Assembly: GCA_022661535.1 (NCBI GenBank)
Contig: JAKULF010000004.1
Span: 806,001 to 870,000 of the forward strand
Direction of reading: 5' to 3'
Length of the DNA stretch: 64,000 bases
Source: Eutypa lata
Lineage: Eukaryota > Ascomycota > Sordariomycetes > Xylariales > Diatrypaceae
Below are positions 7,799 to 43,191 of the stretch, piece after piece (the first letter of the stretch is position 1; the number at the start of each line of letters is the position of its first letter). The position numbers were made by a program, and so were the translations under genes. A model generated the notes under the pieces. It saw only the letters and a list, made by a program, of their open reading frames with translations, was not told where the DNA came from and did no database searches.

Positions 7799-7945
7799 AT
7801 CATCCCAATGTTTCGAGCTTTTCTCATTCAACATGTCTTCCAATATCTTGTCAGCCTTTAATCCCACCGCAGCCACCGACCCAGAGGGTTTATATCGAAG
7901 GAGAACGGCTAGGCAGACCAGATAATAGGAGCGTACAACTTCACC
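7799..7945 (-). pseudogene. Possible remnant of a sixth family member (C-terminal block only)
   Basis: On the minus strand an open frame contains GEVVRSYYLVCLAVLLRY, SGSVAAVGLKADKILEDML and a KHWDD ending. This lines up with the last block of paralogue 1 (SEVLHTFMSLLCHIFIG, GKFVFVG, a Leu/Met helix, GGWRDG) at matching spacing. Upstream of this block the frame runs into the antisense of the next gene and no family N-terminus is visible. The match is short and weak. Confidence 0.3.
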
Positions 7946-8008
7946 CAATAGGCCACATATGCGCCAACCAGAGAGAAAACAAGACTCGAGAACCGCGAAA
8001 AGTGCCTT

Positions 8009-19000: not shown

Positions 19001-20314
19001 TATGCTAGAAAGGTTATACGAGTATTTATACTCTCCAGAGTAAAAATGTAATATCTAAGAACCCAAAGGAGCACGGGTGACTGAATGACTCATGAGAGAA
19101 AGGCTTCTCATACCAAAAATTAGCACTCGAAGTGCACAGTCAACTCACTTTTAAATACCATCTTTCTTCACGGTCTTTGACCACTGCGGTTTGTGTCCAA
19201 TGCCGCCAGTTATACTCGGTCCCAAATAGGAGTGTTAAGTTAGAACTAATATACCGTACCTATAGGTAGTTAGAGTGTCTCGCTAAGTAGTCTTGTCTTA
19301 ATCTTCTATATGGTATGGTATATCACCCTATTTGTATACACTATTATGACAACGTGTTCAATTCATTTATTAGATTTCAAATTCCATTGACATGCTTAAG
19401 AGATATTTAGCCTGTAACATTGAAGTTCTACTTTACATCTCGTACTACTACTCATCTAGCAAGTCCCTATCTAATACGACTTGGTCTGACTCACTCATCA
19501 ACGTATACATCCAAGCAGTAAAGCAGTGCCTACATAACTTCGGACCCTTGATTCATTGGCATGAACCTATCCCAGAGCTGGTCTAAAAGCCCTTGGTGCC
19601 AACGGGGCGTTAACTTTAGGAGTGAGACCAAGTAAATCGGCTATGCACCGAATATCTCTCTGGGTATGAAGGTTAAGAAGCGCGGCCTAGTTGAACATGT
19701 ATAAGTTCCAACCAATGCTGACGGAGCTTCAATGTTAGGTATCCGTAGAAGTTTAGAATAAAAATGATATCCTACTGACGATACGGATACTTTCTACAGT
19801 TTAGGTGGTAATTCGGGAACCTTACGGCGTAATTCCATCACATGATATCGTCGTCTTATAGACCTAACCCGGAGTCCGGTGTCATCTGGTAGGTCGGCCG
19901 GCGATTTTTTCTTGTCGGCATTATAAGTATGACCCGGGCTTTCCCCCCTGCGGACGGAATAGACAATCGAGCGTCTTCAAGCCGACAGCCAATCAGGATA
20001 AGGGGGGATGCCATCTTGTAAGTGCCATATTAAGCTTATCAAACGGACCACCACTAACAACTCCACTCAGGCACATCTCCGCTCTTGGTAAGTACCACAG
20101 TACGGAGCCTGCACAGTACGATACTATCATAACTGGACCCACCCCCACTCTTGATAGCCGCCTCGTATAGTTAAGTAGTGGCAGTTATATATGCTGATAG
20201 TTATATACATTTTGGTAGTTATTATGAACGATTCGAAGGACCGTTGGTAGAATCGGGCTCTGCTTATTGCTCACAAGGCTACGTACAAAGTAGGTCTCAT
20301 GACATTCCGACACA
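19001..20314. other. Gene-free stretch and promoter region of the Rieske oxygenase
   Basis: No gene recognised. GATAAG sites (AreA-type) occur at 19997-20002 (plus) and 20035-20040 (minus). The cluster element at 20143 is listed separately. Confidence 0.45.
20143..20153 (+). promoter_or_regulatory. Cluster element, exact copy (CCCCACTCTTG)
   Basis: Exact match to the 11-bp element shared by hxn promoters, 162 bases before the Rieske ATG. Proposed HxnR operator (inference from placement and from the RAEHMHR recognition helix of HxnR, a type that reads GGG). Confidence 0.6.
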
Positions 20315-21673
20315 ATGCTGCGCTTCCTCGGATTCGGCCCTGCCGCTGACAAAAGCGCCAAGCCGGAGCCTGCACGGAGCCTCCCGGCCTCATGGTACCG
20401 GTCGCCCGAAATGTACGAGCTGGAGCGACGTGCCATTTTCTCGCGCCGGTGGATGCTCGTAACGCACTCAATGCGCTTCGCCCAGGCCGGCGACTTCCAG
20501 TCATACACATTGGCGGGATTCCCCGTGTTCCTGGTGCGGAGCCGCGAAGGTGACATCCGTGGCTTCCATAACCTGTGCCGCCACCGTGCGTACCCCGTCG
20601 TGCAAGCGAAGTGCGGTACAGCTAGTATCCTGAGCTGCAAGTACCACGGCTGGTCGTACGGCTTCAAGGGCAATCTTGCTAAGGCCCCGCGCTTCGACAC
20701 GGTCCCGGGGTTCGACAAGAGCCAGCACGGTCTGCTGCCCATCCACGTGCATGTCGACAAGACCGGCTTCGTATGGGTGAATTTACAGGCCGGTGAGCCT
20801 GACATTAAGTGGGACGACGAACTGGGCGGCCTGGATCAGCGGCCGCGACTACTGAAGTTCGATTTCGCTAACGAGTTCACCTACGATCACACCTGGGACA
20901 TGGAGCTGAACGCTAACTGGAAGGGCCTGATCGACAACTACAACGAGTGCTACCACTGCCCGACGTCACACCCGCTCATCGCCGGCGTGTCTGACCTGAC
21001 TAAGTACAAGGTCGAGCCCAACAAAGGGAGCCTCGAGCACGAGATTGTCAACAAGGAGCAGAAGGAAGACGACAACTTCCGGCGATCCATCACTTTCTTC
21101 TACCCGACTACCTCGGTCACGATAACGTAAGTTAACCCTAACCCTGACCTAACCCTAAAGCTGATGATGATCTTCGATGGACGCAGTGACAACTTCTTCT
21201 ACTTTCAGCGCATGATCCCCGTAACGGCGACGAGGAGCATCATAGAGAACGAGGTATACCGCCATAAGAACGCCACAGATGAGGAGTTCGCCAACATCAA
21301 TGCCTTCTACCGGCAAGTCCTGGATGAGGACAAACAGCTCTGTGAGGGGGCGCAACAGAACCTGAGCAGTCGAGTATACATCAACGGGGAGCTGCACCCG
21401 GAGAAAGAAAAGGTACGTTGAAGGCTGGCGGCCACCCACTTTTGTCGAGTACACTAACATTGAAAGGGCCCAATTCATTTCCAGAATATCGTACGGAGAG
21501 ACGTCATGGAGCACCGGAGGAAAGAGGAGCAGCAAGGGGGAAGGGAGATCTGGCCCGCCGAGGCCCAGGTCGTCGGGGAGATGAAGACGGCGAAGCTGGA
21601 GGAGGAAGAGGAATTTTGTGCGAGACTTGAGGCCTCGGGCTGTGCGGCCAAAAGAGAACAACTGGCGTGGTAG
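20315..21673 (+). CDS. Rieske [2Fe-2S] non-haem iron oxygenase, choline-monooxygenase-like (414 aa)
   Basis: Exons 20315-21126, 21187-21412 and 21467-21673 join in frame. Rieske domain: CRHRAYPVV at about residues 89-97, then CKYHGW after an 18-residue gap (the C-x-H and C-x2-H ligand pairs). The catalytic domain has [13 protein letters not shown] near residues 208-220, carrying the two histidines of the mononuclear iron site. The tail is charged and continues GPIHFQ and EEQ-rich helices as in fungal choline-monooxygenase-like proteins. Family members hydroxylate or N-demethylate betaines and related quaternary amines, using electrons from a separate reductase. No such reductase is encoded in the window. 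The gene starts 0.13 kb before the 3' end of hxnR and carries the cluster element in its promoter. That suggests it acts in the same pathway, although it is not in the hxn set known to me. Confidence 0.9.
21133..21158 (+). repeat. Interstitial telomere-like repeat inside an intron
   Basis: Three CCCTAA-type units with one variant (CCCTGA) lie within intron 1 of the Rieske gene (21127-21186). The fungal telomere unit is TTAGGG, seen here as its complement. Confidence 0.85.
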
Positions 21674-21804
21674 ATCATATTCCCAACAATACCTAGTCAG
21701 AATTGAACTTCCTTCACGGGCGTGTTTCCTAAGTCTTGACTGAAGACAAACAAATACTTGTGACTATAGCTAGCTAGGCATTCTCCCTCGTCATACCATC
21801 ACAC

Positions 21805-24800
21805 TTACAGAGGCTCCTCATACCTGTTAATCATCCGCTGCGGTACTAAACCCCGCAGAACAACAACACCGGAATGTATGATGCCCCAGCGCACCTTGGT
21901 CAGCTCATCGGCCATGACCCACACGAGCCCGGCGGTCGACCGCTTTCCCAAGGCCAAGAACTCGTCGCGCCGCCGCGTCCGCGCCATGCTCGCAACCAGC
22001 CCGCGCATATCAGCTTCGGGATCCCAGATGATGTCGTCGTCCTGGTCCATTTCTAACCCAATTATTCCTCGTGCGCTACTACTACTACCACTACTTTCTG
22101 AATACCCTCCTCGTCGCCGTGGCCGTGCGTGGTGCACTGCCCAGCACGTCAGCGTGGCCAGGAAAAGACACCAGGGCACGTGGAACAGGCCCATGGCCTC
22201 AGAAGAGTCCAGCAGGTCGTGGTTAATAGCTTCGAGCAGGAGCCGCGCCGCGTGCCAAGCTGCGGTCCCCGCAGGGGCCGGGTCCAGGTCTCTTCCATCA
22301 TCTTCTTGTTCTTGACATGAACTACCTCCATCACGAGTATTGTTATTATTATTACTAGGGTTATCGTGGTTATGATCACTGTCCTTATTACCAGACCATA
22401 AGTCGGCAGCCCAGCGTCTGATGACCTGGCTTGACCGCAGGTAGTCCCGCTGCTGGACGGGTCGGCCCAGGATGTGGCGGGCCCCGGCGTAGATCTGCAC
22501 GTCGAGGAACTCCATGTGGAGAAGGGCCTGGGCCGCGTGGTATACGGTGCTGTAGGCCGCGGCGAAGGCGTCCATTTCCCTTCGCTGCGCTGCCAGGTCC
22601 TCCTTCTCCTCCTCTTCTCCCATATTCCCATCCTCTGGCAAAACAGCTTCCCGGGAGCGAACGTGTGCGTCAAAGTCGGTCTTCCAGACATCATAGGCAG
22701 CGCTGATGACCCGGCGCCATCTCCCTCCCGTTGCTGATGGGCCCGCGACGCCGAGGGCCGTCTGCTCGCGCCGCTGCATGTCCCAAGCCACTGACATTAG
22801 CCCGTGGAGCAGCAGAACGCGAGACAGGCCCGTCAGCCGTGCCGGCCGGGGAACCTGCGGTGTCAGGTACGACTTGAGGGCCGCGAGGAACGGGATGCTA
22901 CTATCGTCGTCGCTGTCTGTTATTGGTGGTGGCGATGGTAGTGATTCTCCGCCGCCACTACCTCTCGTCACCACTGCTGCTGCTGCTGCTTCCGCTGTTC
23001 GCCGCCATCTCCTGGCCCACGATGCCGCGTTGGGCGCTTCCCAAGTGCTCTGGCTACAGGGCAGGGCGACGCGCAGCTCAAAGGCCGACATGCAGAGGCT
23101 CTGGCAGAAGAGCACAGCGTGCTGTGTGTCGCACATGAAGCAGATGAGGGCGAGCCTCTTCTTCTGCTCAGCCTGCGCCCAGCGCCGCCACGACTTCTCC
23201 TCTTCCTCTTTCTGCTGCTGCTGCTCATCGACACCCCTTTTCGATAGGGGGGGAGGACCTTCTGGTCGCACCGACTGGCAGTCCGACCTCCGGATCAGGT
23301 TGATCAGCAGACCGTGGAACAGGTGGCTCATGTCATGCTGGGTCTGGCCGGCGCGTGACTTGCCGAAGCACTCGACCAGCAGGATGGTCTGCAGGGTCCA
23401 GAGTTCCGGGCGCGCCGAGAACCCCGCGTGCGCGAAGATGCTGGGCCGAATGACGTCGTGGACGCAGACGGCGAGCTGGTGTGCTTCCTTCGACAGGTAG
23501 GTGGCGCCTAGCAGCAGCGCCGAGAGCAGGAGCAGGGGCTCGACGGTCCGCAGGTCGAAGGTGGGGAGGTGGAGCAGGGGGTATGCCGTGTTGAACTGAG
23601 TGAAGTAGAGCTCGAGATAGGTGTTGAGGGAGGTGAGTGACAGGAGCGGGTGTTCCCGGACCGGACAGGACGATCCGGGGACCTGCGGATTGGCCATCTC
23701 AATGACGTTGATGAGGCGTTCGCGTATCTCTTGGTCTATCTGAGGGATCCGAGTGGACCGATCGAGCATTGATAGCGGCCTCTCCCGCTCAGGGGTTAGA
23801 GGCGGCCGAGGCCCGGGGGTTGTCGTGGTAGCAGCAGGAGCATAGCCCTGCGACCCCCTCGTCCGGGTCTGTGGACTCACTCGGTGAGCCACTGCTTCGA
23901 AGCCGTGTCGAACCCTGCTGCCGGAGGACGGGGTCATGGATTGCAGTGGAGATGACGATGGTTCGCTTGTTTGGGATCCGAACGTGCTGCTGTTACCCTC
24001 TTCAAATGTCTGCTGACACTGCTGCTGTACCCACAGGTCTGCAACGCTGTCCAGTGATTCAGGGGGAGTGGGAGCCGTGATGAAGGGTCCTGGATCGCAC
24101 ACGCCTTGACCGTATATATCTGTCGGCAGGGTCGACGTCTCTTGCACCGCGCCCGTACGTATCAAAGTGTCGTCTAGATTGTTGTTGAATAACCAGTTGT
24201 AATCAAGTGCCGTAGTATACGGCATATTAAACGAGCTCGCTGTATCTGGTTGGAATATCTGATCATATTCGAGAGCGGCGAAGTTGTGAAAACTGCTGTT
24301 ATCCGCTGCCCAAGGTTGTTGCTGCTGGGAGTCTCTTGCTGTGTATGCGTCCTCAGGTTCATCAGAGATGGCTGGCACTCCAGAAAAGCGGTCAATTCCT
24401 ACTGAAATATGTTGTTGTGGTTGCGGAATGGCTTGTTCCCCTTCAACCCGAGCTCCTTGACGAGTTTGGGTCGGGGAAGTTCCTGGCTGCTGCTGCTGTT
24501 GAGAAGAAGAAGCCCTCTCACGGCTAGGCGCCGCTGCCAGTGGGGCGTAAGGCCGAGTTTCAACGATGGCGCCGTCGATAGTCTTCCAAGACCGTTTCCG
24601 AGTGTTTAGAGCACCGACGCCGCCGGTTCGATTCGCCTCTAGATCCCTCTGGCGATGGCGGTTCACGTGCCGGCCTGTCAACTTATCATCAGCTTACGTA
24701 GGGTCATGACCGATACAAAGATTATAGACAGACATACGCAAAAGGTCTGGACGCTTGAAGTGGGCCCGGCACTCCTGGCATGTGTAATCACCCGACGTGT

Positions 24801-24924
24801 GGTTCAAGGCATGGCGGTGCATGTGCTCGGCCCGGGTGAAGCGTTTATTGCATCCGGGGTAGGAGCAGGGAAACCGCTTCTCTGTGACATGGTCTGTGTC
24901 CATTGTGCTAGTAGTGGTCGTCAT
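21805..24924 (-). CDS. hxnR: C2H2 zinc-finger / Fungal_trans transcription factor, HxnR-like (1018 aa)
   Basis: Exon 1 is 24924-24738 and exon 2 is 24674-21805; the 63-nt intron interrupts the second finger. Two fingers lie near residues 19-71: C-x4-C with FTRAEHMHRH, and C-x2-C with KRPDLLRRHVNRH. A long low-complexity region follows (poly-Gln, Ser/Thr/Pro, acidic patches with FNMPYTTALDYNWLF), which probably activates transcription. From about residue 375 comes the Fungal_trans middle-homology domain (TYLELYFTQFNTAYPLLHLP). The last third has loops of Gly, Ser and Asn repeats. This architecture matches HxnR, the inducer-responsive activator of the A. nidulans nicotinate regulon. The gene lies inside the matching gene set and diverges from hxnX. 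It is longer than I would expect for the Aspergillus protein, mostly through simple-sequence insertions. Finger helix RAEHMHR is of a type that contacts GGG, which fits the G-rich cluster element. Confidence 0.85.
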
Positions 24925-25086
24925 ACCTGATAATCACTGGTTAATTCTAAGCGTGTCTGAAGCCTGAAAGAATGGGATGGACAACATCGAGGGTGGAGGG
25001 GGAATGGGGGTAAATCACAGAGCTTGCCCCAGTGATCCTCGCCGGGATATCTCCGATAAACCCCACCCTTCCGCACTTTCAGGGGT

Positions 25087-25097
25087 CAAGAGTGGGG
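25087..25097 (-). promoter_or_regulatory. Cluster element, exact copy
   Basis: Reads CAAGAGTGGGG on the plus strand, the exact complement of CCCCACTCTTG. It lies 163 bases upstream of the hxnR ATG and about 600 upstream of hxnX. Confidence 0.6.
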
Positions 25098-25149
25098 TGA
25101 GAGGTTCCACTTAGTGTTAAGCCGGTGCCGTGTCGATCCATCGGAACAT

Positions 25150-25168
25150 GATAAGAGATCTCTTTATC
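25150..25168. promoter_or_regulatory. Inverted pair of GATA sites
   Basis: GATAAGAGATCTCTTTATC: GATAAG facing the complement of GATAAA around an AGATCT centre, palindromic but for one extra T. GATAAG is the core of the fungal nitrogen regulator AreA. Binding is inference. Confidence 0.45.
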
Positions 25169-25695
25169 TGGCCCAGCGCCGGGACAGCAAGCAGATAGGA
25201 CCAGTCTGGTAATTAAACCGCTTTATAACGAAGATAGTATCTCATGAACTGTTTATATAGGATATCCTTTTATAATGTACATAAACCGTTATATCAAGAT
25301 TGCAGCGAACTTAGGGCGTTAACCGTTGTGCCGACTACGTCGGCTTATATATGGTTTATATCGCCGATATATGTTGTGAGACATGCGAACCAGTAGATGA
25401 AAAGGGTGGTGCCAGGACGAATGTGACGTATTCGGCCGGATATTATGCGCCATACCACCTGGCATAAGTGGGCTGCTACATAACACAGTTGAGCCTGTTC
25501 AATTGCTTATATAGGGGTGTCAATTTACTATTCAAGTTGAACACATTTATAATGATCACAGGGGCGGGTTTCTAGTTATTCATTATATCAAGGTCCACAT
25601 CTACTCAGGTATATTGGGGACGCATTAGGCGATCGGTTAGGCGTCTTGAGAATCTCGAGTAGGCGGTCTTAGCTCTACACCCTTCGCCTCTTCAC

Positions 25696-27200
25696 ATGGC
25701 CTCACCAAGCTATACCGAGTTCTCCCGCCAGGGCCAAGAGAAGATGGAACGGGATGACCAGAACAAGTTGAATGTGAGTCTCCTGTCCTCCTTCCCGCAG
25801 CTTTGTTCTCTGACAATTAGTAGGTCATCATCGTGGGTGCCGGTCTGGGCGGTCTCGGCGCCGCGATCGCTATTCTTCTGGCGGGGCATAATGTGACCAT
25901 CCTCGAAGCCGCGCGCGAGATTGGCGAGGTTGGTGCCGGCATCCAGGTCCTCCCCAATGCCGCTAAGGTCCTCTTCTCCTGGGGGGTGGAGGAGCAGCTC
26001 AACCGCCACGCCACAAGGCCGCGTCAGTGCAACTTCCTCGGCTGGAAGGGCAACCATCTGTCCAAGATGGACTACCACGGCTATGCGCGTGCCGCCGGTG
26101 CCCCTTTTCTCGATTTCCACCGCGCCAACCTGCATAGCTGTCTGCTGGACCGGGCCGTCGAACTGGGCGGCAACATTATGACCAATGCCCAAGTGCAGAA
26201 CTTCGCTATATCCGAAGACGACACCACGGCTAGCGTCCTGCTTGCTGATGGGCGCGTGCTCGTCGCTGACCTCATCGTCGGCGCCGACGGCATTAACTCG
26301 ACCTTGCGCGAGGTCTTCCTGGGAAGACAAGACCCGCCACAGCCGACGGGAGACTTAGCTTACCGCCTCCTCCTTAACACGACGGATATGCTTGATGACC
26401 CAGAGCTGCGCCCCATGGTGGAGAGCCCCCAAGTGAACTACTGGGTCGGCCCGGGCGCTCACGCCGTGAGCTACGTGCTCAGGGGCGGCGAGTTTTTCAA
26501 CGTGGTCCTGCTCGTCCCCGACGACCTGCCGCCTGACGTGGCCGCAAACACAGCTGCAGGTGACGTGGCTGAGATGCGCGCGCATTTCGCGGGATGGGAC
26601 CCGCGCCTCCGCAAGCTGGCGTTGCTGGGAAGCGGCGAGAAATCAACAATCCTCAAGTGGCGGCTGTGCATCCGGCCGGGACTGGACCCCACCTGGTCGC
26701 ACCCATCGGGCGCCTTCACAATGCTGGGCGATGCCGTTCACGCTACGCTTCCGTACCTAGCCAGCGGGGCGGGCATGTCGCTGGAGGACGGCGGCGTCCT
26801 GGGCCTCTGCCTCGGGAGGCTGGCCGACAAGTCGCCCACATCGAAGCAACGTGCACTGAGAGCGTACGAGGCGTGCCGGCGGGAGAGGACGGAGAAGGTT
26901 GTCGAGAGGGGAACGTACAACCAGTGGATATACCACCTTCCCGACGGACCGGAGCAGGAGGACCGCGACAGGCGGTTTCGCGCCTTCGGGGAGTCGGATC
27001 AGCGGTGGTTGGCCGAAGGGTCTCCCGTGCTCCCCGAGTCGCAGGAGACGGGTGATGATCCCTTTCCGTGGCGCTATCACGGCGTCGCTCGGTGGCTGCT
27101 GACATATGACATGTGGAAGGATGTCGAGGCAAGGTGGTCGCAGTACGCTCTGCCGCTGCCGGTTTCTGATCATCCCCATCCGACGAGGCCGAATCTTTAA
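25696..27200 (+). CDS. hxnX: FAD monooxygenase, HxnX-like (6-hydroxynicotinate hydroxylase type), 484 aa
   Basis: Exons 25696-25773 and 25824-27200. Class A flavoprotein monooxygenase of the salicylate-hydroxylase type. Seen: dinucleotide fold VIIVGAGLGGLGAAIAILLAG at the second exon start (about residues 27-47), GAGIQVLPNAAKVL, the DG motif LIVGADGINSTLRE (about 178-191), and the second flavin motif GDAVHATLPYLASGAGMSLEDG (about 340-361). No membrane segment. By homology and context it is HxnX, which hydroxylates 6-hydroxynicotinate to 2,5-dihydroxypyridine. In bacteria the analogous step is made by NicC. It diverges from hxnR and probably shares its promoter. Confidence 0.85.
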
Positions 27201-27649
27201 TTATTTACGTGGTATTATTAAACATATGTATCAAAAACAAGAAGTTTTATTTGCCACTGCGAAATTTGTGATTAGCTTTACTAAGTTCCGTTTCAACAAG
27301 GTCTGACCATAAGCATGGTAGCCGTGCAAGTAGCCGTAGTTAGTCACCGTAGCTTGAGATAGCCTGGGTATCCCATCGCTCTCTTGTGTACTTTCGTATG
27401 TAAGTGCTACATACATCTATATGTGTTTGACGACCGTTATTATTCAGGTAGTGTCGGTCTACGTCAGTGTTTGGGTCACTCCCTATTCGCTGTCTATATT
27501 TTTCAATGAGATGTTTGCGGGCCTCTGGTGCGACACGCAAAGTACTTTAAGCTGAACTATTATTCTAATACATCAATTGACTGTCTGGTGTCTGCACCTA
27601 GATCCTTGAGATAACCCATCTCTAAGGAAATATTCGGTACCATCGCTCA
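27201..27649. other. Intergenic between convergent hxnX and hxnT
   Basis: No gene recognised. Confidence 0.4.
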
Positions 27650-29103: not shown

Positions 29104-29912
29104 GGTCGAGGACTTGGGGGGTGGTGGGGGCGGAAGAAACTGATCTTGATGACTAGGAAAGGCTAAGCTCAGTCGAGATTATCTATGCTATTCTATTCGA
29201 GACACGGTTCTGAAGGTAGGTAGATGTTCTTGTAACATGCGATCTTATCTACCTGAAATACCGAAAGCAATAGAGCCAAGGTGCTGTAGACCATCGTCTA
29301 CCCCTGACCGAGTCCCACCTTTGCGCGCCCATATATACGTCGTTCCAACTCCCGTGGGTGGGAGCATGCCGTGTGGCTATCATCCCCACCCCTAGCTTGT
29401 GGTTTGGTCGTAAGTGGGGGTTGCCCTATCGTGGGAGGCATTTCATCATCAGCCTTGGACTGTTAACCCACATGGCCACCCCCAGTCTTGGCTAGCCAGG
29501 GGCAAACCTCCTAGCATGCACTAGCTCCATCTCTGGGATGTGTCGATCGCTCCTTAATCTATGATATTGGTACCCCCAAGTTATTCGATCGAATAAGCAG
29601 CCCCCGCCTAGACAAATTTAGCCAGTCGTCAGGCTCTTCCGGGAAAGGCAAATCTGTGAGGGTATTGGTTTCGACTTTTTATACATAGTCGTAGAATTCA
29701 GAGGGTGAAGCAGTGAAGATAGAATCCCTTACATTTCTAAAGCATAATATTAGGGGCTTTTAGCGCAAACCTTTCTCTACAGCTAAGTGTAAGTCTATAG
29801 CGCCTCATATCCCATCTCAAAAGACCACCAAAGTAAGCTTATAACTCGGAAGGGTTTATTGATCATTATCTTGTCCGACTTTCACGTCACTCTGTCTCTT
29901 GATGTGAGCCTC
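29104..29912. promoter_or_regulatory. hxnT promoter region
   Basis: No gene. Element-like CCCCAGTCTTG at 29480-29490 (one mismatch), plus CCCCACCCCTA near 29384. Confidence 0.45.
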
Positions 29913-31828: not shown

Positions 31829-32583
31829 GATGGTCCGAAGAGGTTCCGAAAGTGTGAAAAGAATAGCTCTACTCAATCGACGCTGGCTGATGTTACTCGA
31901 TAAAAGATTACGAGGTTGAAGCGAATTGTGCTCTCGCGATTTTTATTATCGGTAGACAAAGAAAGAGAGTTCCATGCGCTCCGCAGCGCTCGGTATAGTC
32001 ACATACCTCCTTGGCTAATCGAACAGCATTGAAGTCATTCATAAGCGTTCGCATCATCACTATCACCTCCCTTGTCTCGGGCGTTATCTATCTCTTCTTT
32101 ATCAGCTTGGATTCCTCCCCCACCCTTAGATAACCAGCCAAACGACTCGCACTAGTTACTATGGCTGGCCTATTAGATCAACACATTGGTGGCGTGGTGG
32201 TCCAAATTTTGCAAGGTGGACTATCGAAAGCATAATAAGTCATACAAACCTGGTCGTTGTCTATTTCATTTAATTTTCATTCTGAAAATATGTTAGATAA
32301 CCCGAAGTCGTTGCTAATTGTAGGGCGCCTCCTATTTTATACGATGTAACAAAAATCTTGTATGAGATAAGCGGTATTCTAAAATCTTCTAAAATTTGCT
32401 TTTAGTTGGTTACGTATACTTGAGACTACTATACTTGAGTGGTAGTAGAAATACCGTAACGTGGGTTAATTAATATCACCCGCGCCTGACTTATACGTGT
32501 TCGTCGTTTCATAGGAACTGGGGAGTCGGAGTGGCTTGTCTCGGAAATCTCTTGTAAGAATGTCAAGTATTGAAACCTCCGAA
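31829..32583. promoter_or_regulatory. hxnZ promoter region
   Basis: No gene. Element variant CCCCACCCTTA at 32118-32128, with GATAAC next to it. Confidence 0.4.
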
Positions 32584-34547
32584 TTATGCGGCTTGCAGAA
32601 ATCCGCCGTAATACGTATCAAGCCACTCGGCCGCGGCCTCGCCGGATTCTCCCCCTGCCGCGTTCCATCGTCCAATAGAGCCGACGTAGCCGTCCGGGCG
32701 AACATTAACAATGGTGACCTGACCAGCCTCCAATCTCCCGAGCCACTTCTCCGTGCAGGATAACTTCTTAGTGTCTAGATAAGCTACGTCATCAATATAG
32801 ATCGTCCACCTGCTCTCGGAAAATAGGTGAGGCAGCGAGCTAATTTCAAAACTGCTCTTGTCCGAAGACGCTGTACGATGGCAACACAGTTAGTACGTCA
32901 AGAGAGGGAGTCCATTGTGCGGGTCTTCGGCTGATACTTACTGATGAGAGCGAATGTGAACAGTGGGCTTACTGTCTCGTAGCGTTGCACCTGGAGAAAC
33001 TCGTCGCCTTCCCTCTTTGGTCTCGGTTTTTTCTGATAAGAAATCGAAGCCGCCCTTGATACGCGGCTGATGAGGGACGACTTGGATTCGATACCTCGGC
33101 TCAGAGCGTCGATGAAAGTTGTTTCTGCTGTGCCGGTGATATCGCCCACCACGACGTAGATGCGGAACTGGCCAAGCATAGGCACATCTAGCTGGACATC
33201 GACTGGGTTGGCGTCGATGTACCGCGTTACTTTAGCTGGAGGAAGGTTGCTCCCTGGCTTGGCCTCTCCCAGAGCTTCCTCATCGCGCCCCTGGTTGAGT
33301 ACACTCTTCCCATAGACAATGCCCACCCCGGAAATGAAACGGGTGTTAGTCCGGAAGTTCTCCGCTAGTCGCTCTATATCACCCCCCGCAATCTCGTTGG
33401 CATGCTCGAAGTCGAAGTCAATCAGGTCGTGGGCCACCTTTTTCCGCTCCGTCTCATAGCTCTCCAAGAGGCTGGCTCTGGCCAAACCCCTAGCTGCCAG
33501 GTTCAACTTCCACCCTAGATTCCACGAATCGTGCATGCTCGTGTTCATGCCTTGTGCTGCCTTGGGGCTGTGTGAATGGCTCGCATCGCCGGCAATGAAG
33601 GCACGCTGGTCGGGGCTGGCGAAACGGGCCGCCACACGCTGCGCAACTTGGTAGTTACCGAACCACTCGACGGAGCGCCATTCCACTCGATACGGCGCGA
33701 GGATCAGACGCGCCTGCTCCATCACGAACTCTTGGCCCAGGTTCTTGGACGAGGAGGAGGACTTCATTTCGATGTAGAAGCGCGTCATGTTCCGCTCACG
33801 GGGGATGATGAGGATAGAACCGTACTGCTCGGAGAAGACGACAGTTTTACTCCAAATGTCCGGGAAGTCGGTATCCAGTTCGCCGTCCAGCACTCCCCAG
33901 AAGGACTCGTGAGGCACGGCGTCGGCGTGCGTGTTGGGGATGGCTTTTCTAACCCGAGACCGGGCGCCGTCACAACCCACGAGGTAGTCGGCTTTGGCCG
34001 TCGCCTCGATATCGCCGGGCTGGGTGAAGTGGACTTGTAAGGCCGAGGAGCGACCAACATCGTCGTAGCTCGAGAACAAGCTATCGCGCTGCACCTCGGT
34101 GCCGCTTCTGCGCAGATCTTCCAACAGCGTCCCCTCCACCATGCCCTGGTGGCATAGCAGGATATAGGGCTGCAAGACGTCAACGACAGAAGCCGGGTAG
34201 TGCACCTGACGGCTGATGCGCCCCAGCGCGCCCCCGTTGCTGCGCCGCCACATGCAGATGTCGTAGACCTTAACGCCTGTTCGGAGAAGCTCGTCGCCCA
34301 ATCCGAGCATTTGGAGTGTCTCGATCGTCTTTGGTTGGATTCCGTCTGCGCGGCCAACCGTCGTCTGATCTGGCCGCTCGTCTAGAACTTGAATTTTGAG
34401 TCCTAACCTTGCTAGTATGACACTGCGTCGTATCAGTATGGTGATTGAAAATGAGCCCGGCCTTACTCACGCCAATGTCAGCCCGGCTGGCCCGGCCCCG
34501 ACGATGCAGACATCGTGCCTCTCACCGTCGACAGAGGCGTGTGGCAT
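32584..34547 (-). CDS. hxnV: FAD monooxygenase, phenol-hydroxylase family, HxnV-like (614 aa)
   Basis: Exons (minus) 34547-34471, 34422-32942, 32870-32584 join in frame. Seen: VCIVGAGPAGLTLA at about residues 13-26, ARLGLKIQVLDER closing the fold, GRADGIQPKTIETL (about 53-66), the DG motif LVGCDGARSRVRKAI, and FIAGDASHSHSPKAAQGMNTSMHDSWNLGWKL split here as GDASHSHSP and GMNTSMHDSWNLGWKL. The C-terminal thioredoxin-like domain ends VRPDGYVGSIG followed by AEWLDTYYGGFLQ. The first exon is short and outside the longest open frame, so a naive call would start about 40 codons late and lose the FAD motif. It shares a 418-bp divergent promoter with hxnN. It corresponds to the second flavin monooxygenase of the hxn regulon. 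Confidence 0.87.
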
Positions 34548-34965
34548 GCTGTTGCTTTGTGAGTTCTGTAGGAACAGATGCTATAGCAGGTTGGATCGTC
34601 GTCGCGGATCTGGATATATGATGCCAAGTCTCACCAAGATGTAGATACAATACGGATAATAGTCGTTTATGAGCTTCTTCATACCATACAATGTGATAGG
34701 ATAACACATCTCCATTCTTGGCGTCGCTCCCGGCCAAACCCCCACTCTTGCAGGTTCCACTCGAGATTATAGCTACCTAGCTCTAGTAGTACTTAGTATA
34801 TTACCCCAAAATGGTACTATCTGCTGGCGTGATTGGCCCCCGGTTGCGTCGTACTTGGGTCATTCAGATCGCCTTTACCATCCTCGTCCGAGTCAACTAA
34901 ACCCTTCACACCTGTTCCAGGCCGTTTCTGTCCGTTCGTCTGTCTCTCTTTCTATCTCGCCGATT
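34548..34965. promoter_or_regulatory. Divergent promoter between hxnV and hxnN
   Basis: 418 bp without a gene. Contains one exact cluster element at 34740-34750 close to its centre. Confidence 0.6.
34740..34750 (+). promoter_or_regulatory. Cluster element, exact copy
   Basis: CCCCACTCTTG, 193 bases from the hxnV ATG and 216 from the hxnN ATG, so it could serve both. Confidence 0.6.
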
Positions 34966-36958
34966 ATGCAGGGAAGACGGAACTGGGAGGCCATTGCCGC
35001 CCAAAAGAGGCAAGAGCAAGCCGCGCACCTGGAAGCCGCACTGAGTACCGCAGATACTCATTCGAATGAGAATGGCAATAGCCTAGGGGCCCAAGAGGTT
35101 ATCCGCAAGGTGTCATCGGGCCAACTCACGGCCAAGTCCGTTGTTCATGCCTACATAGCCCAGTCAGTAATGTCGAGGCCGGCATGGCCCTTTACCCCGG
35201 TGTTGATACTACATATTGACACAATATTTGGAGCAGGGCTTGCGATACTCACAGAAAGGTATGGACTCCGCTGGTGTACTTGCTGTTAATGAAACGTACT
35301 GAAGGGGGTATTTATCTAGACCAACTGGTATACCCCTAATCCGCATTTGGGACTCGGCTGTCGCTCATAGTACTTGTAGCTTAACAGAGATTATGTTTGA
35401 CGATGCGATCAAAGATGCAGAAGAGCTTGACCGTTACTTTGTGCGTCATGGAACTACTATCGGTCCTCTACACGGCGTGCCTGTCACCCTCAAAGACCAA
35501 TTCAACGTGAAGGGGTTTGACTCGACTATTGGCTACGTAGGCAGGGCATATCAGCCGGCTCAAGATGACTGCGCTCTAGTCAAACTCCTACATTCGTTAG
35601 GGGCCGTCGTCATAGCCAAGACAAACCTCCCTCAGAGCATCATGGTGTGTAGCCCTAACCCCCCCCTGCCTGCCTAACTCATGAATTGTCCCCTCGCTTT
35701 TACAGTGGTGCGAAACCGACAACCCCCTTTGGGGTCAGACCACAAACCCCATAGACCCAAGGTACACACCTGGTGGCTCGACCGGCGGTGAGTCAGCCAT
35801 GCTCTTCTGTGGTGCCTCTATGTTGGGCTGGGGCACCGACATAGGTGGGAGCATTCGCATTCCATCTCACATGATGGGACTTTACGGATTTAAGCCCAGT
35901 GTATGTCAATTCTGCACTGCATTTTAAGTGACTGTCCCCCACTCTCACCCTCTTGCTAACCAGTCTGATCCCGAAATTAAAAGAGCGCACGTCTACCCTA
36001 CCGTGGCGTCCCCGTGTCCACAGAAGGCCAGGAACACGTCCCGTCGGCCGTCGGGCCCATGGCTCGCAGCTTAGACATGATTCAACTTGCCGTGGAATCT
36101 GTCATTAGCAAACGGCCGTGGGACTTTGACGCACGATGTGTTCCGATGGGGTGGAGAGATGACATATACGCGTCAACCTGTACGAGGCCACTGACCATCG
36201 GTGTGCTGCTGGATGACGGTGTAGTGAGGCCACATCCTCCCATTACGCGCGTACTACGGGCCGCCATCGAGGCCCTTCGGGCAGCCGGCCATCACATCGT
36301 CAATTGGGATGCGCGGCTCCATGCCGAGTGTATCGAGGTTATGGTAAGGGTCCGAACCAATTGGTGCGCCTGACTTACATGCGTCACTGTTTTTCTGATT
36401 CGTCTTGTATAGGATCGCTTCTACACGGCGGACGGCGGCGAGGATATCCGGACTGCTATCGCCGCGGGGGGCGAACCCTTCATCCCTCACGTAGAGCGGC
36501 TCGTCAACCGCGGGCAGCCAATCTCCGTATATGAGTACTGGCAGCTTAACAAGCAGAAATGGGAACTGCAGCAGGCCTACTTGGACAAGTGGGACTCGAT
36601 TCGCTGCCCCGAGACCGGGCAGCCAGTCGATGTTGTCCTGATGCCGCCCATGCCACATACAGCGGTGCCTCACGGAGGGTGCAGGTGGGTAGGCTACACG
36701 AAAGTTTGGAACTTCGTTGACTATCCTGCCTTGGTGATACCTGGAGGTGAGGTAGAAATAGGGGATGTATCTGAGCCGTGGGAATATCCCCCCAGAGGAG
36801 ATCTGGACGAGTGGAATCAGAAGCTTTGGGTGGACAACAAGACAGACATGGCTAAGCTGAAACTCCCTGTCGGTGTGCAACTTATTGGACGAAGGTATGA
36901 GGAGGAGAAGGTGTTGGCTGCAGGAAAGGTTCTCGATGGCCTTCTGCATGATAACTAA
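34966..36958 (+). CDS. hxnN: Amidase, HxnN-like (530 aa), seven exons including an 8-nt micro-exon
   Basis: Exons 34966-35162, 35237-35258, 35320-35327, 35380-35644, 35706-35900, 35984-36343, 36413-36958. Amidase-signature enzyme: TLKDQF supplies the Lys of the Ser-cisSer-Lys triad, TPGGSTGGESA the first Ser stretch, and GTDIGGSIRIPS the nucleophile stretch. A C-terminal PVGVQLIGRRYEEE completes the family pattern. The second and third exons (22 and 8 nt) are needed to read AYIAQACDTHRKTNCLTEI, a conserved N-terminal block that cannot be read any other way. In the hxn pathway HxnN removes the amide nitrogen after ring opening (alpha-hydroxyglutaramate to alpha-hydroxyglutarate), releasing ammonia. 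No signal peptide. Start at 34966 gives the usual NWEAIAAQKR opening. Confidence 0.87.
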
Positions 36959-37177
36959 TTACTGCTCTCTTGTCGTATTTCTATTCATGATCACGATAAG
37001 TCTCCCCAAAAGATAATATCTATCACCTTCTCACAGGCAAGCCTTGGGGACATCCTACTACAGTGACCACAGATATATATACACACAAATAACTGCAGGT
37101 ATAGAAATGCTACATTGCAAGTTAAAAAAGAAAGGCCGGTTACATATGTAAAAGATTAATTATACTACGAAGTTATT

Positions 37178-38466
37178 CTACGCCTTGGTATCTCTGTACC
37201 TTTTCATCACCTCATCGGCCGCTACCGGCATCAATGCATCAGGCGGCGGGGTGTTCTTGCTCTTGAAATAGTCGCACATCTACCACACAGAAAGTTAGCT
37301 GTCTATCTCAGTGTTACCGGTCCAGATTTATGTTCTGTCTCCACTCACCTCGGCCATCGTAACCCATTCTACCCCTTCGTGCTTGTTGATGTGCTCAATA
37401 ATGCGCTCGTGCATCAGGAGAACATGTGGTCTCCCTGACACGTCCGGGTGGATAGTCATAGGGAAAATGAACTCATCTTAACCCGAGACACAATTAGCAC
37501 GCGCACGTAAACCTGGTGATGGGTGAGAAACACGCATACCATATTCTCTGTAGAAATAGTCAAAGTGGTCTCTCCAGATATCCTCCACGTCCCTGTAATC
37601 CATTAATCAACACCTTGAAACGAAGTGGGGGGATCTCTGATCATCCTGTGCTATGCTCACCTAGGGTTGACCCAGCCATGTGAATTGGCAGAGTTCTTCA
37701 TGAACATCATGGGTGGCAAGTCATCAATATACCAAGACCCCGGGATCTCAACGAGCCCCGTTTCTTTCCCCTTAACCAGGGGCTTCATCCATTCCTCGGC
37801 CTTCTTCGAGTAGTCAATCTTGGTCCAGGAATCGCCGGTGCGGAGCCAGTAGGCCTGGCAATCGTGATGCGACATGGAATGGTCGTACTCGATGCCGTAG
37901 CTGAGCAGCAGCTCGGTACCCTCCTCGCTGGTCTCCCACCACGGAGCGACGCTCCCTCGCGGCGGCTTCCCGCAGAACTCGGTCAGGAGCTTCCACGTCT
38001 TGTCGAGCACGTCTCTCTGCTGCTCCATGGTCATGTCTGCGGGGTTCTCATGGGTGTAGCCGTGCAACCCGATCTCGTGGCCGGCGTCGCGCACCATGGC
38101 GCATTCTTCCGGGAACGTCTCCAGGGTGTGTCCGGGGATAAACCACGATGCTTTGATGTTGTACTTGTCAAATAGTTTCAGTACGCGGCGTGTCCCGATG
38201 GTGCCAGCCCAGAGGCCTACACGTAAAGCAGTCGGCAGTCAGCAGTCGATCAGTCATCTACTTTGGCCGCACAGAGCAACGGAGGAGCTCATACCTCTGC
38301 TGATGTCACTGGTGCTGTCCTCGCCGCCGTATGAACCCAACCAGCCCGAGACGGCGTCAATATCGACACCATAGCTATGTTCCAATTTCCTAATTAGCCC
38401 ATCCCTCGGAAATTGGTGACAGGGTAGTAGAGCACCCACCATACCAAGACCTTTTTCTTGCCCATT
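37178..38466 (-). CDS. hxnM: NodB-fold polysaccharide-deacetylase-like hydrolase, HxnM-like cyclic imidase (319 aa)
   Basis: Exons (minus) 38466-38441, 38389-38295, 38216-37661, 37592-37540, 37476-37349, 37279-37178. Seen: [18 protein letters not shown] near residues 14-31, [10 protein letters not shown], and [11 protein letters not shown], the metal-binding His motif. Then APWWE and [16 protein letters not shown] in the last third. There is no signal peptide or wall-binding domain, so it is cytosolic and not a chitin deacetylase. In the hxn cluster the equivalent protein is the cyclic-imide hydrolase that opens the reduced, oxidised pyridine ring, and the amidase next door takes over. The first exon is only 26 nt. 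It diverges from hxnW across 666 bp. Confidence 0.87.
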
Positions 38467-39132
38467 CTGACCTGAATCGCCCGAGGTATAATGTGACGTG
38501 GAGGCTTGCGGATGGGTCTCTTCTCGATGCCGGCGGTGTTAACAGGATTTTTTGCAGCAGGCCGGTTCATGAGGAGGGCCCATTTTTATGCAAGAAGGGA
38601 CTACCTCGTTGCACCACTCTTGCCGGGCGACATAACCCGCATCGGCTCCCCGTATGACCGGCGGCCGCTTCCGATAGCCATTGGGTGGTCCTTGTTGGAC
38701 ATCCCCCCATCCCCATAGGTGCCGGCATGATAGATAAACATGATAGATAATGTTCGACCCCTGCATGTGAAGTTGCATGGGAAGTGTAGTAGTTGGAGTG
38801 GATGGTTCACCGGTCTCCTCCACTCTACCCCACCCCCACTCTTCCCACTTTAGGAAATATAGATCGCATCTGATTGGACGATAAGGGAAGTTACTAACAT
38901 TTCCCTCGGAGGTACATCCGGGTACGCCCGGGGCATCCCTTGACTACTTGACGAGGACCTCGAGTGTCAAAGCCACGATGTTAGGGATGTCATGGGGGAT
39001 ATTAGCTAAGCGGACGTCCGGGGCCTTGAAGGAGCGCTCCATCGATTGAAAGACTTGGTCCTTCTCCTGTCAGATCGGATACGAGAATACCTAGGTTCAG
39101 AGGAGAAGCACAGCTGCCGAACAATATTCACA
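38467..39132. promoter_or_regulatory. Divergent promoter between hxnM and hxnW
   Basis: No gene. Element copy CCCCACTCTTC at 38834-38844 (last base differs) and GATAAG at 38880-38885. Confidence 0.55.
38834..38844 (+). promoter_or_regulatory. Cluster element, one mismatch (CCCCACTCTTC)
   Basis: Ten of eleven bases match; the mismatch is at the last position. A GATAAG site follows 36 bases downstream. Confidence 0.5.
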
Positions 39133-40142
39133 ATGTCTAAGGTAGGTCTATTCCTAATATCCCATGGACGGTTGGTCAAACTAGAGGGCTAATTAAGCTC
39201 ACTCCTGGGAATCTAGTTCTCCCTCAAAGGGCGCGCCGCCATTGTGACGGGTGGCGCCAGAGGCTGTGGTCTCGCTTTTGCCCAGGGCCTAGCCGAAGCA
39301 GGCGCCGACGTGGCAATATTTGACGTGATCCCCCCGTCGCCAGCCTTTGCACAGCTGCCGGCAGAACACGGCGTTCAGGCTCGTGCGTACACTGTCGACG
39401 TAACGTCGCTCGCTAGCCTCGAGAAGGGCTTCGCAGCTGTGTCGCACGATTTTTCAGGGAAGCTGGACATCTTCGTGGCCTGCGCCGGCGTGAACAAGCA
39501 TGTCGAGTTCCTCAACACTACCGAGGCGGACTTCGACCGGCTAGCCGGCGTCAACTCCAAGGGCGTCTATTTCTCGGCCCAGCTAGCCGCCAGGGCCATG
39601 ATTAGCAACGGCACTAGGTGTGGTAGCATAATACTTGTGGCGAGTATCGCGTCCCACATGGCCATTCGCTCGCAGTGTTCATCCGCCTACTGTGGTACTA
39701 AGGGGGGTGTTCGTGCTATGGTTGCCCCTATTGCGGCTGAGCTCAATAAGTACGGTATCCGGGTAAACTCCATTAGTCCTGGCTACGTCCGTACAGAGAT
39801 GACGGTACCGTTCCCGCATCTCCTGGAGAGCTGGAAAGATGAGATCATGAATGGGCGAGTGGCGGAGCCCGATGATATAAAAGGAGCCTGCGTCTTCTTG
39901 GCCAGTGATGCTAGCAGGTGAGACCCCCCACCCTTCTCCCTTTTCCCCCCAAACTACTTGTACCCGTCGCTCCGACTCATGAATAGAGTTGAAAGCTATT
40001 TCTTGCTCTGGAGCCTCGCTCGAAACCTGAACCAGAACCAACCGGAAAACGATTCATTCAAATACTAATTTCTACCTCATTTTCCTTTAGCTACTGTACA
40101 GGTTCAGATATTCTAGTGGACGGAGGGGTAACCAAGTGGTGA
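39133..40142 (+). CDS. hxnW: Short-chain dehydrogenase/reductase, HxnW-like (253 aa)
   Basis: Exons 39133-39141 (three codons only), 39217-39917, 40091-40142. Classical SDR: cofactor loop TGGARGCGLAFAQGLAEAG at about residues 14-32, DVTSL, CAGVNK, the catalytic SIASHMAIRSQCSSAYCGTKGG region with Ser, then Tyr and Lys in YCGTK (about 165-169), and SPGYVRTEMT. The C-terminal exon gives SYCTGSDILVDGGVTKW, the standard SDR end. Asp after the second strand (IFDVIPP) suggests NAD(H) preference. Diverges from hxnM. In the pathway it presumably oxidises a hydroxylated piperidine or hydroxyglutarate-type intermediate; which one cannot be told from sequence. Confidence 0.86.
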
Positions 40143-40528
40143 TGCAATATGTATTACTATATTCGAGGATGGACTTGAATATTAGAATTATGTAGTAATT
40201 ATATCTTACGCGAGAATTTACGGAAAACTAGTGCTTTTCATGGGTATAGTGATTGAAGCGTCTAAAAATTCAATTGTACGTGACTCGAAGTGCGATAGAC
40301 TCTCATGTCCTCGATGATCCTTTGCACAGGAAATGCCAAGGGATGGGATAGCATTGAATAAGACGGCTTCGGATTATTAAGGGTCAGACACAGGCTTCAA
40401 ACTACCTGATGACTTGAGGTACATGTGCCATCTGTCTACACAAGCACATAAGATCTCTACATATGTACCTATATAGTTGGCACTGACCCAGACACTGGTA
40501 CATGCAAATTATTTTCAATTCAGCTTTG
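40143..40528. other. Intergenic between convergent hxnW and hxnP
   Basis: No gene recognised. Confidence 0.4.
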
Positions 40529-42273
40529 TCAAACGAAGTATCTCCACTGAGGGTCCTCTTCGCCCTGGGTGAGGGTATGTGTCTCAACATCCTCCGCTCG
40601 AAGAACTACCTGCTGAAGCTTATCCCTCCGGCCGTTTTCGCGGCGCATCCACAGACCTAACCAGAGCGTGAAGCAGATACATGTCACGTTGCAACCTGCT
40701 GTGGCAACTAAAGTTGGAACATAGCGAGGAGCATAGGTGCTCCGAAAGGTGGCCGCCGACAGGATACCTCCAAGGTTCCCAAGTCCGACCAGCAGCCCCG
40801 TTGTGGCCGCCCTTGAGTTTTCGCCGAGGTTGTTATTGTTGTGCCAGCTGTGGACAAGGCAACTCGGGATGTAAGCCCCAGAGGCCAGAAGAAAACAGGC
40901 GAAGTAAGCCACGGCCGTGTTCTTAGTAGCATCAACGGCAGCCAAGACGACCAGCCCCGACAGACTCAATGTGAGGCTACCAACGATATGGAAGGTTCTC
41001 TCGCGGTTTCTATCGGAACTGTAGGTTACCGCAAGGAGAACAATAAATCCGGCCACGTTTGGGGGAATGGTCAGCAGGTTGGTCACAACCGTGCTGTAGC
41101 CGAGTGCCTTGAGAACAATGGGCAGGAAGTTCGCCGTCGTCGCGAAGGCCACAGGGTATGTGAAGCTAATGATGCACCACACCGGAAATTTCCAGTTGTT
41201 CCATTGCCGAAAGCACTCTCTAAAGTTGAAAGCTTCATCGATCTTGGAAGAGCCATCGCGTAACGACCTCAGAGGTGCGGCCTGCCGTTCAGCAGGGGAC
41301 AAGAACCAGGCCGTCTGCGGGTTGGCCGGCAGCCAAAAGAAAGCCACCACCCCAAATATCACAGTCATGGCGCCTGCCCGTGTTAAAATAGCTCAGGTTA
41401 GCAGGCTAATCCGTATACGGGGACATATGATATCACCAATTGTGCCATACCTTCGATCAAGAATAACCACTTCCACCCTTGGACGAAAGGATGGTGTATC
41501 TGGAACACGCCAAATGAAATTAAACCCGAGAATGCGCTGGCCAAAAGTGCACTCCCGAAAAATAGGGCGATACGGAAGCCGAGTTCATTGCGCGTATAAA
41601 AAAGAGTCAAATAGAATATGGCTCCAGCAAAGAAGCCGGCCTCGAAAACACTGTCAAGATTTTGTTTCGCATGTCAGTATGTATATTATGAAAAACCCGG
41701 CGAAACTCTTTTCACATGAACCTGACGGTCATAATTGAATTCTTCTTCTTCCTCTCTGTGACTTACCCTAAGATGAGACGGATTGCTAACATGCCACCAA
41801 AATCTCTGGCGGCAGCTTGGACGGTAGCCATGGCTCCCCAGCCCACCATGAGGGTAGGCAGCATGATCTTGCCCGAGAATCGCTTGGTCAACAGGTTGAG
41901 GGGGAGATCACACAGGCCATTCGGGATGTAGAACAGGAGGATCAGCAAAGAGAACTGCTGGCCAACGAAGTTGAGGTCCTTGCTCATCCCGTCAGTCTCG
42001 GCATTGCCTAGGTTGCTCTGTGTGTGTATTTTAATGTTAGATATCAGTAGACGACGGCCAGCACAATATGGCATGGGGGAAAGTTGCGTCACTACTTACA
42101 CGGTCGATGGCATTGAAGAAGTACATCAAGCTTGTGAATGGCAGAAGCCACATGTCCGTCTTGCGGACAATTGTCCTTTCAAGAACCTCATCAACGGCTC
42201 TTCCTGGCTCAACTCTGACTACCTCCTCTCCCTTCTCGGCATTTAGCGACTCTGGTTGACCCTCGAGCTCCAT
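40529..42273 (-). CDS. hxnP: MFS transporter, allantoate-permease (Dal5/Tna1) type, HxnP-like (489 aa)
   Basis: Exons (minus) 42273-42100, 42017-41767, 41650-41451, 41373-40529. Anion:cation symporter family, which includes the yeast nicotinate permease Tna1. Seen: RKTDMWLLPFTSLMYFFNAIDRSN at TM1, NFVGQQFSLLILLFYIPNGLCDLP, RLILGVFEAGFFAGAIFYL, FLPANP-like FFWLPANPQTAWFLSPAER in the central loop, and twelve hydrophobic spans. Its promoter (42274-43191) carries an exact cluster element and three GATA sites. Best assigned to HxnP, the likely nicotinate importer; nicotinate itself as substrate is inference. Confidence 0.82.
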
Positions 42274-43191
42274 TGTGATAAATCTGTCTTCGGAGAGAAA
42301 CCGTCACCAAGCTCTTCTATCAGAGAATACCTACATAATTAGCTAGTATGGGGCGCTGAATGGGGCAGAATATATATATATGAGCCAGATTAACACCTAA
42401 AGTTCATAACCCTACTTAAATTATGCGTACCTTGTCCATAATATCTACGCGCACATAGCGACCCTTGACATCAGTTACCTATCATATCACTATATCGGGC
42501 AATCCCACCTGGCGTAAATAGAAAGAAGCTCGCGCTTCACAGGGGTGAGAGCTGAAGCATCACGATAAGACCGATAAAATCGATAAGGAGTTAGATACCT
42601 ATGTAGGAATGATGACCGGGAAGATGGGGAGCCAACCAGGAGCTTAAGCTTGGTGGCACAGATGCGACTTCTCCCGACGTTGGCTTGCACCAAGAGTGGG
42701 GGAGAGGATACACACACTATGGCGCCAGTGGGGATTTATGGTGACGGCCATGAGATCACTATGCATTCAGCCAGGATGGTTTCAATCCGCAGTTGAACTA
42801 GTAAAAGTTTTGAAATAAATGTTATTATTCCATGTTGGCATTATTTTGACTGACACCCGTCTTAAGCATATATCTACTCCAGAAATTTAACGTCCCCCAA
42901 ATGGCCGGAGGAAGTGTTGAAGACACTCCCTTAGTAGGAGAAAGGGGAAGTTCACGTATGAAATAACCTATACCAAACTTGCAATGTGCCTGGAAGTTTG
43001 CAACATGCTACGACCCTACCAGTGACCAATCACAATAATATACGAGATAATACATGAGATTCATTTCTTAATTTAGTGATATACGGAGACTCTCCTGGAT
43101 AGATGGACCAATGTGGTGTGTAGCCGTAGACTTGACTTTTATCTTCTCACGGCCTAATATAGTACCCAGGTTGATATTAGTGAGGTCTTTC
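42274..43191. promoter_or_regulatory. hxnP promoter region
   Basis: No gene. Exact cluster element at 42691-42701. Three GATA motifs lie close together: GATAAG at 42564-42569 and 42582-42587, and GATAAA at 42573-42578. Confidence 0.55.
42691..42701 (-). promoter_or_regulatory. Cluster element, exact copy
   Basis: CAAGAGTGGGG on the plus strand, 418 bases upstream of the hxnP ATG and about 100 bases from the GATA trio. Confidence 0.6.

Follow-up and report, generated by a model that had tools for sequence, protein, structure and literature searches.

In Aspergillus nidulans, the closest described counterpart of the system considered here, the hxn genes are under AreA control, and the passages on regulation in Bokor et al. 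(2021; PMC8478523) give the site of the pathway regulator HxnR as 5'GHGGGG, or 5'GNGGDG in relaxed form, as predicted by a finger-code program, and state that HxnR sites are experimentally undetermined. Among characterised proteins, HxnR is closest in architecture to Schizosaccharomyces pombe Klf1, together with the relatives that Klf1 has in Pezizomycotina, and Klf1 is described as required for long-term quiescence (PMC5746545). The stretch of DNA analyzed here (hereafter, the window) comprises 64,000 nucleotides of the Eutypa lata genome (contig JAKULF010000004.1, positions 806,001 to 870,000), and carries an hxn gene cluster for the degradation of nicotinate (vitamin B3). An 11-bp element, CCCCACTCTTG, recurs in its promoters, and a sequence-only reading had proposed it as a candidate operator of HxnR, whose gene is itself a member of the cluster. 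The present analysis makes that proposal likely, since the element is enriched, located in promoters, concentrated in the cluster and a fit to the published GHGGGG; judged from sequence, a short word before nearly every cluster gene is very probably the switch by which HxnR turns these genes on.

This locus sharpens and supports the published prediction, and is no new kind of system. GTGGGG, the hexamer within the element, is one of the three GHGGGG words, and the regulator family, the cluster and the AreA-type HGATAR sites are those of A. nidulans; what differs is that T is the sole enriched second letter here, that the signal also takes in the four to five bases on the 5' side of the hexamer, and that the site was obtained by promoter comparison, whereas the A. 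nidulans site came from a finger-code program. Regulators of the Adr1 and CreA types also use two C2H2 fingers to read a G-rich hexamer. HxnR has two such fingers as well, and the Adr1 structure 2adr is among its solved-structure matches (E 9.1e-6), but its predicted element is longer and is concentrated in the promoters of one pathway, and a conserved basic block lies directly past its fingers. In the E. lata genome no close duplicate of the HxnR fingers and their extension was found: no other locus closely resembles the fingers plus the following segment, the best remaining match scores 36.5 bits (residues 8-42), and none of the weaker ones extends beyond residue 71.

The presence, rarity and promoter location of the element are direct observations. 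Exact copies lie at 20143 (+), 25087 (-), 34740 (+) and 42691 (-), all where the sequence-only reading had placed them, and a search of the window found no further one, as it had also claimed. Its expectation of 0.03 copies per 64 kb is close to the 0.04 given by dinucleotide shuffles of the window, and four copies were reached in 0 of 100 such shuffles. Across the 54,524,940 bases of the genome the exact word occurs 19 times (four of them in the window) and a reversed-pattern control 20 times, while within one mismatch the counts are 617 and 693; because these word counts are about those of their reversed controls, the enrichment is confined to the window and does not extend to the whole genome. 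A word common throughout the genome, which would have undone the earlier proposal, is therefore rejected. At the rate set by the 15 copies outside the window, the Poisson probability of four exact copies in 64 kb is ~4e-9, and in a simulation four of 19 random points fell inside 22.6 kb in 0 of 200,000 runs.

The 15 outside copies are also placed differently. Eight lie in predicted exons, one in a predicted intron, one upstream of a weakly scored open reading frame (ORF), and the remaining five off predicted genes and outside the 1 kb in front of any predicted start codon, so that only one of the 15 (at locus L022) falls in such an upstream kilobase; the genome-wide gene models used here come from our own simple predictor and are rough. 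A general promoter word is rejected from this placement, which is mostly exonic or off promoters. At L022 the exact 11-mer (position 4996) stands 199 bp upstream of a small, weakly scored ORF (4393-4797) with a carboxymuconolactone decarboxylase match.

When mismatches are allowed, the window contains seven places within one mismatch, namely the six of the sequence-only reading (the four exact copies plus 29480 and 38834) and a further one at 38612 that was absent from it. The two-mismatch copies reported at 32118 and 44635 exist too, though 32 places in the 64-kb window fall within two mismatches.

For the promoter statistics, eight cluster promoter regions were defined (6254 bp in total), and each word they contain was used as a seed, without preference for the 11-mer. 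At each length from 8 to 12 this word or a shifted neighbour came top: at k = 11, AAGAGTGGGGG ranked first and CAAGAGTGGGG second, and within one mismatch CAAGAGTGGGG is found in six of eight promoters and the 10-mer AAGAGTGGGG in all eight, against three to five promoters for the best 11-mer in 40 shuffled promoter sets. Leave-one-out scoring against 66 control promoters, 34 of them unselected, placed six of the eight cluster promoters at a level equalled or beaten by just one control; this control holds an exact copy, is outside the 34 unselected, and must be L022, which was fetched for holding the word. The hxnZ and hxnY sites were matched by 9 and 8 of the 66 controls. The earlier claim of a copy in every cluster promoter is consequently too strong for the 11-mer, since the hxnZ and hxnY copies are not significant as such; at hxnT the one-mismatch copy exists, but its mismatch breaks the predicted contact hexamer (CTGGGG for GTGGGG).

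The reverse strand of the 11-mer is CAAGA-GTGGGG, and its two halves behave differently. With expectations from 56 non-overlapping control promoters, GTGGGG occurs 14 times in the cluster promoters (2.61 expected) and is present in all eight, compared with 16 of the 56 controls, whereas the two alternatives predicted with it remain at background level (GAGGGG 1 vs 3.04, GCGGGG 1 vs 2.17). Taken without extension, the published GHGGGG shows weak enrichment only (16 vs 7.8, P 0.007), and alone would therefore be a poor detector. RAGR precedes GTGGGG at 8 of 14 cluster sites, at 1 of 18 in control promoters and at 0 of 49 in unselected background (117 kb), and at 0 of 101 in all larger fetched loci after removal of 15 CAAGA-GTGGGG copies; this association, like the preference for GTGGGG, is observed directly, and indicates that the bases before the hexamer hold separate information. 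The element is better written RAGRGTGGGG than as the exact 11-mer. In this form it has eight sites in seven of the eight cluster promoters (two at hxnR, and hxnT alone without one), with the closest predicted ATG lying 158 to 418 bp downstream, and is found in one of 56 control promoters; genome-wide there are 393 copies, with 10 in this 24.5-kb stretch, two of these in predicted introns. The intronic words, which read CCCCACYCTY, are at 35937 (hxnN) and 39926 (hxnW), and the pyrimidine-rich nature of these introns may explain both.

From left to right the cluster contains genes for a Rieske oxygenase, hxnR, hxnX (FAD monooxygenase), hxnT (old yellow enzyme), hxnZ (transporter), hxnV (phenol-hydroxylase type), hxnN (amidase), hxnM (polysaccharide-deacetylase type), hxnW (short-chain dehydrogenase), hxnP (transporter) and hxnY (2-oxoglutarate oxygenase). 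Gene models and starts are from our simple predictor, refined, with Pfam domains added, and the hxn names follow the sequence-only reading and the domains listed in the corresponding part of Bokor et al. (PMC8478523) rather than a phylogeny. The sites and the two genes at the left end are as follows.

20143..20153, + strand: exact 11-mer in the Rieske promoter, 162 bp upstream of the predicted ATG.
20152-20157: GATA site TGATAG, overlapping the end of the Rieske-promoter 11-mer.
20315..21673, + strand: Rieske oxygenase gene, 408-aa model with PF00355 and PF00848.
21805..24903, - strand: hxnR, with two C2H2 fingers, the TRKRxW block and PF04082.
25061..25071, + strand: hxnR promoter, second site, CCCCACCCTTC, two mismatches, full RAGRGTGGGG.
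25087..25097, - strand: exact 11-mer in the hxnR/hxnX divergent promoter, 184 bp to the hxnR ATG and 599 bp to the hxnX ATG.
29124, 29384, 29414: other GTGGGG hexamers of the hxnT promoter.
29480..29490, + strand: hxnT promoter, CCCCAGTCTTG, one mismatch, inside the GTGGGG hexamer.
32118..32128, + strand: hxnZ promoter, CCCCACCCTTA, two mismatches, full RAGRGTGGGG.
32128: AreA-type AGATAA adjoining the hxnZ-promoter site.
34740..34750, + strand: hxnV/hxnN divergent promoter, exact 11-mer, with the two ATGs at distances of 193 and 216 bp.
38612..38622, + strand: hxnM/hxnW promoter, CACCACTCTTG, one mismatch, without GTGGGG.
38834..38844, + strand: hxnM/hxnW divergent promoter, CCCCACTCTTC, one mismatch, full RAGRGTGGGG, 264 and 289 bp from the two ATGs.
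42691..42701, - strand: hxnP promoter, exact 11-mer, ATG 418 bp downstream, with a second GTGGGG at 42728.
44635..44645, + strand: hxnY promoter, CCCCACTCTCT, two mismatches, full RAGRGTGGGG, with a second GTGGGG at 44779.
44645-44650: AreA-type site (AGATAA, - strand) at the hxnY-promoter site.

The two RAGRGTGGGG sites of the hxnR promoter (25061-25097) are inverted to each other, in keeping with autoregulation. The promoters of the cluster also contain 50 AreA-type HGATAR sites (22.75 expected), as would be expected under AreA co-control of the kind known in A. nidulans.

The regulator that would read this element is identified as HxnR by its domains (two stretches of PF00096, and PF04082 with E 3.8e-41) and by the position of its gene inside the hxn cluster. 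Among the best 120 of its 287 homologues, the nearest named ones are from Camillea and Biscogniauxia (71% identity), another reaches 98%, and some are named as a nicotinate catabolism cluster-specific transcription factor. Its recognition helices are RAEHMHR (finger 1) and RPDLLRR (finger 2), and the patterns R.EH..R and R.DLL.R recur in 87 of the 87 homologues with the two-finger pattern among the 120 listed. In the usual finger code these contact residues let finger 1 recognise GGG and finger 2 GNG, a combined target of GNGGGG. The earlier suggestion that the finger-1 helix suits a G-rich core is supported, and the element fits the finger helices of the HxnR in the window. Beyond the fingers, the T, R, K, R and W of a TRKRxW block, 19 to 24 residues past the last finger histidine, are invariant in 34 chosen, aligned homologues, and in the predicted structure of the Camillea homologue the finger-2 helix is prolonged to residue 71 and followed by short strands at 78-80 and 85-87. 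Zinc fingers run antiparallel to the G strand, so the TRKRxW block would lie over RAGR.

Taken in this way, the operator on the G-rich strand would be 5'-(C)RAGR-GTGGGG-3', with finger 1 predicted to read the GGG at its 3' end, finger 2 the adjoining GTG, and the basic TRKRxW segment positioned over the RAGR half and perhaps helping to read it. A nicotinate derivative would activate the bound HxnR, AreA at neighbouring GATA sites would assist, and together they would switch on the catabolic genes, hxnR itself and the Rieske oxygenase gene. What we infer from this arrangement is that HxnR binds the element, that the basic segment contributes and that activation ensues; the arrangement agrees with two plain features of the locus: the published GHGGGG is contained in the element (GTGGGG in all eight promoters), and the element stands upstream of regulon genes that include hxnR. 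A consensus this sparse and precise makes it possible to test directly which bases are critical, whether DNA is read outside the fingers, and which genes belong to the regulon.

Several observations weigh against an HxnR operator of this form. The promoters being judged, hxnZ and hxnY among them, also supplied the consensus, which makes the associated probabilities descriptive. ATGGGG, too, exceeds expectation in these promoters (11 vs 3.04), a free ranking of 6-mers puts TGGGGG and GAGTGG above GTGGGG, which is third (the 7-mer ranking is headed by AGAGTGG and AGTGGGG), and 6 of the 14 cluster GTGGGG sites are without RAGR. The hxnT promoter has no RAGRGTGGGG, and the value of its one-mismatch copy as an HxnR site is doubtful, as this copy breaks a predicted contact base. 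That RAGR may be read by the basic segment is suggested by geometry and conservation, and in the predicted structure of the Camillea homologue the pLDDT is 53 to 66 over the ten-residue blocks from 71 to 100. Finally, hxB is HxnR-controlled in A. nidulans, and in the 942 bp upstream of the presumed E. lata hxB neither GTGGGG nor the 11-mer, even at two mismatches, was found. GCGGGG and GAGGGG occur there once each, both fitting the published GHGGGG, though the cluster's form of the element is rejected at this gene; loss of HxnS (see below) could account for its absence, which would not amount to support. A literature search for HxnR together with chromatin immunoprecipitation (ChIP) found nothing.

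Other proteins might read the same bases. The carbon catabolite repressors CreA and CREI have the consensus SYGGRG, to which GTGGGG and even the CTGGGG of hxnT conform, so the element could be a site at which such a repressor shuts the cluster down on good carbon sources. The presence of GTGGGG in every cluster promoter suits this explanation, and the fact that GTGGGG is taken as the CREI-binding element of the Trichoderma cbh1 promoter also counts against assigning the hexamer to HxnR. However, SYGGRG is not enriched as a class (by a class criterion of our own): among its eight variants, strong enrichment is confined to GTGGGG, with a weak rise for CCGGGG (4 vs 0.87, P 0.012) and background levels for the other six. 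A genome-wide repressor moreover leaves both the RAGR extension and the concentration in the cluster unexplained, and we regard a catabolite repressor site as quite unlikely.

A composite element, in which HxnR binds GTGGGG alone and the RAGR or CAAGA half serves another protein, either a distinct partner or AreA at overlapping GATA sites, is unlikely as well. HGATAR sites are found within 4 bp of four of the eight RAGRGTGGGG sites, as against 18% of random positions (post hoc binomial P 0.04), and three of the four are directly at the RAGR end; CAAGAG alone is slightly raised (8 vs 3.6). Yet the four sites without a GATA within 4 bp still have RAGR, and once the 11-mers with up to one mismatch are set aside, the cluster promoters have no CAAGAGT. 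As for chance or promoter base composition, such as pyrimidine tracts, the CCCCACYCTY words in the hxnN and hxnW introns do point to some local composition effect, but neither dinucleotide shuffles nor real control promoters reproduce the element, and the genomic rate of the word makes four exact copies in 64 kb so rare an event (P ~4e-9) that this explanation is extremely improbable.

The HxnR operator reading has consequences for the membership of the regulon. The Rieske oxygenase gene beside hxnR has the exact 11-mer in its promoter and is predicted to be a member of the HxnR regulon, which would place an oxygenase outside the described hxn set under HxnR control in a fungus that seems to be without the first enzyme of the pathway. 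When homologues of the Rieske protein (120 listed of 1828) were compared with those of HxnR (120 listed of 287), ten pairs were found on equal-sized contigs, and none at eight control offsets. Eight of the ten pairs carry the same organism name, and two named pairs, in Neoarthrinium moseri and Fusarium nematophilum, have locus tags five apart; the other contigs are long, so that a common contig is no proof of a common cluster. The Rieske oxygenase thus looks like a recurrent hxn-cluster gene. The section on additional genes (2.5) in Bokor et al. (PMC8478523) names no Rieske gene, and the word is absent from the main text of that paper; in the titles and abstract openings covered by a literature search, nothing on point was found on a fungal Rieske enzyme with nicotinate or trigonelline. 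Its best curated model is glycine betaine monooxygenase, with a score (137.6) far below the cut-off of 670, and a role in trigonelline demethylation or as a replacement for HxnS is a guess.

HxnS, the nicotinate hydroxylase, is described as having an Ala inserted between a Phe and a Thr. The E. lata genome contains a single xanthine-dehydrogenase-type gene (PF20256 and PF02738; locus L018, 3842-8082, contig C7), whose protein reads GISFTA, by eye, without an Ala insertion, and is of the HxA type. The Phe-Thr of this motif is presumably the one meant by the HxnS signature. With the sole gene of this type lacking the insertion, HxnS appears to be absent from the genome, while hxnR and nine other hxn genes remain; fungi in which HxnS is missing and hxnR is intact are known. 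An exact copy of the 11-mer on the same contig 7, near the xanthine dehydrogenase gene, was considered as a sign of a second cluster and rejected, as it lies in a predicted exon ~7.5 kb upstream, and the xanthine type of the gene also opposes this. A fuller proposal is possible, and we offer it tentatively, as one that is more likely wrong than right: that HxnR reads the ten- to eleven-base RAGRGTGGGG with two fingers because the TRKRxW module, with its predicted short strands, reads RAGR, and that its regulon lost HxnS and gained a Rieske oxygenase feeding the pathway, with trigonelline or another N-methylated nicotinate as its possible substrate.

Elsewhere in the window, at 3444-8848, four predicted proteins have like C-terminal stretches (IGKFVFVG, KGKMIFVG, MGKMVFVG and KGKLVFVG), and apparently form a local family of related proteins.

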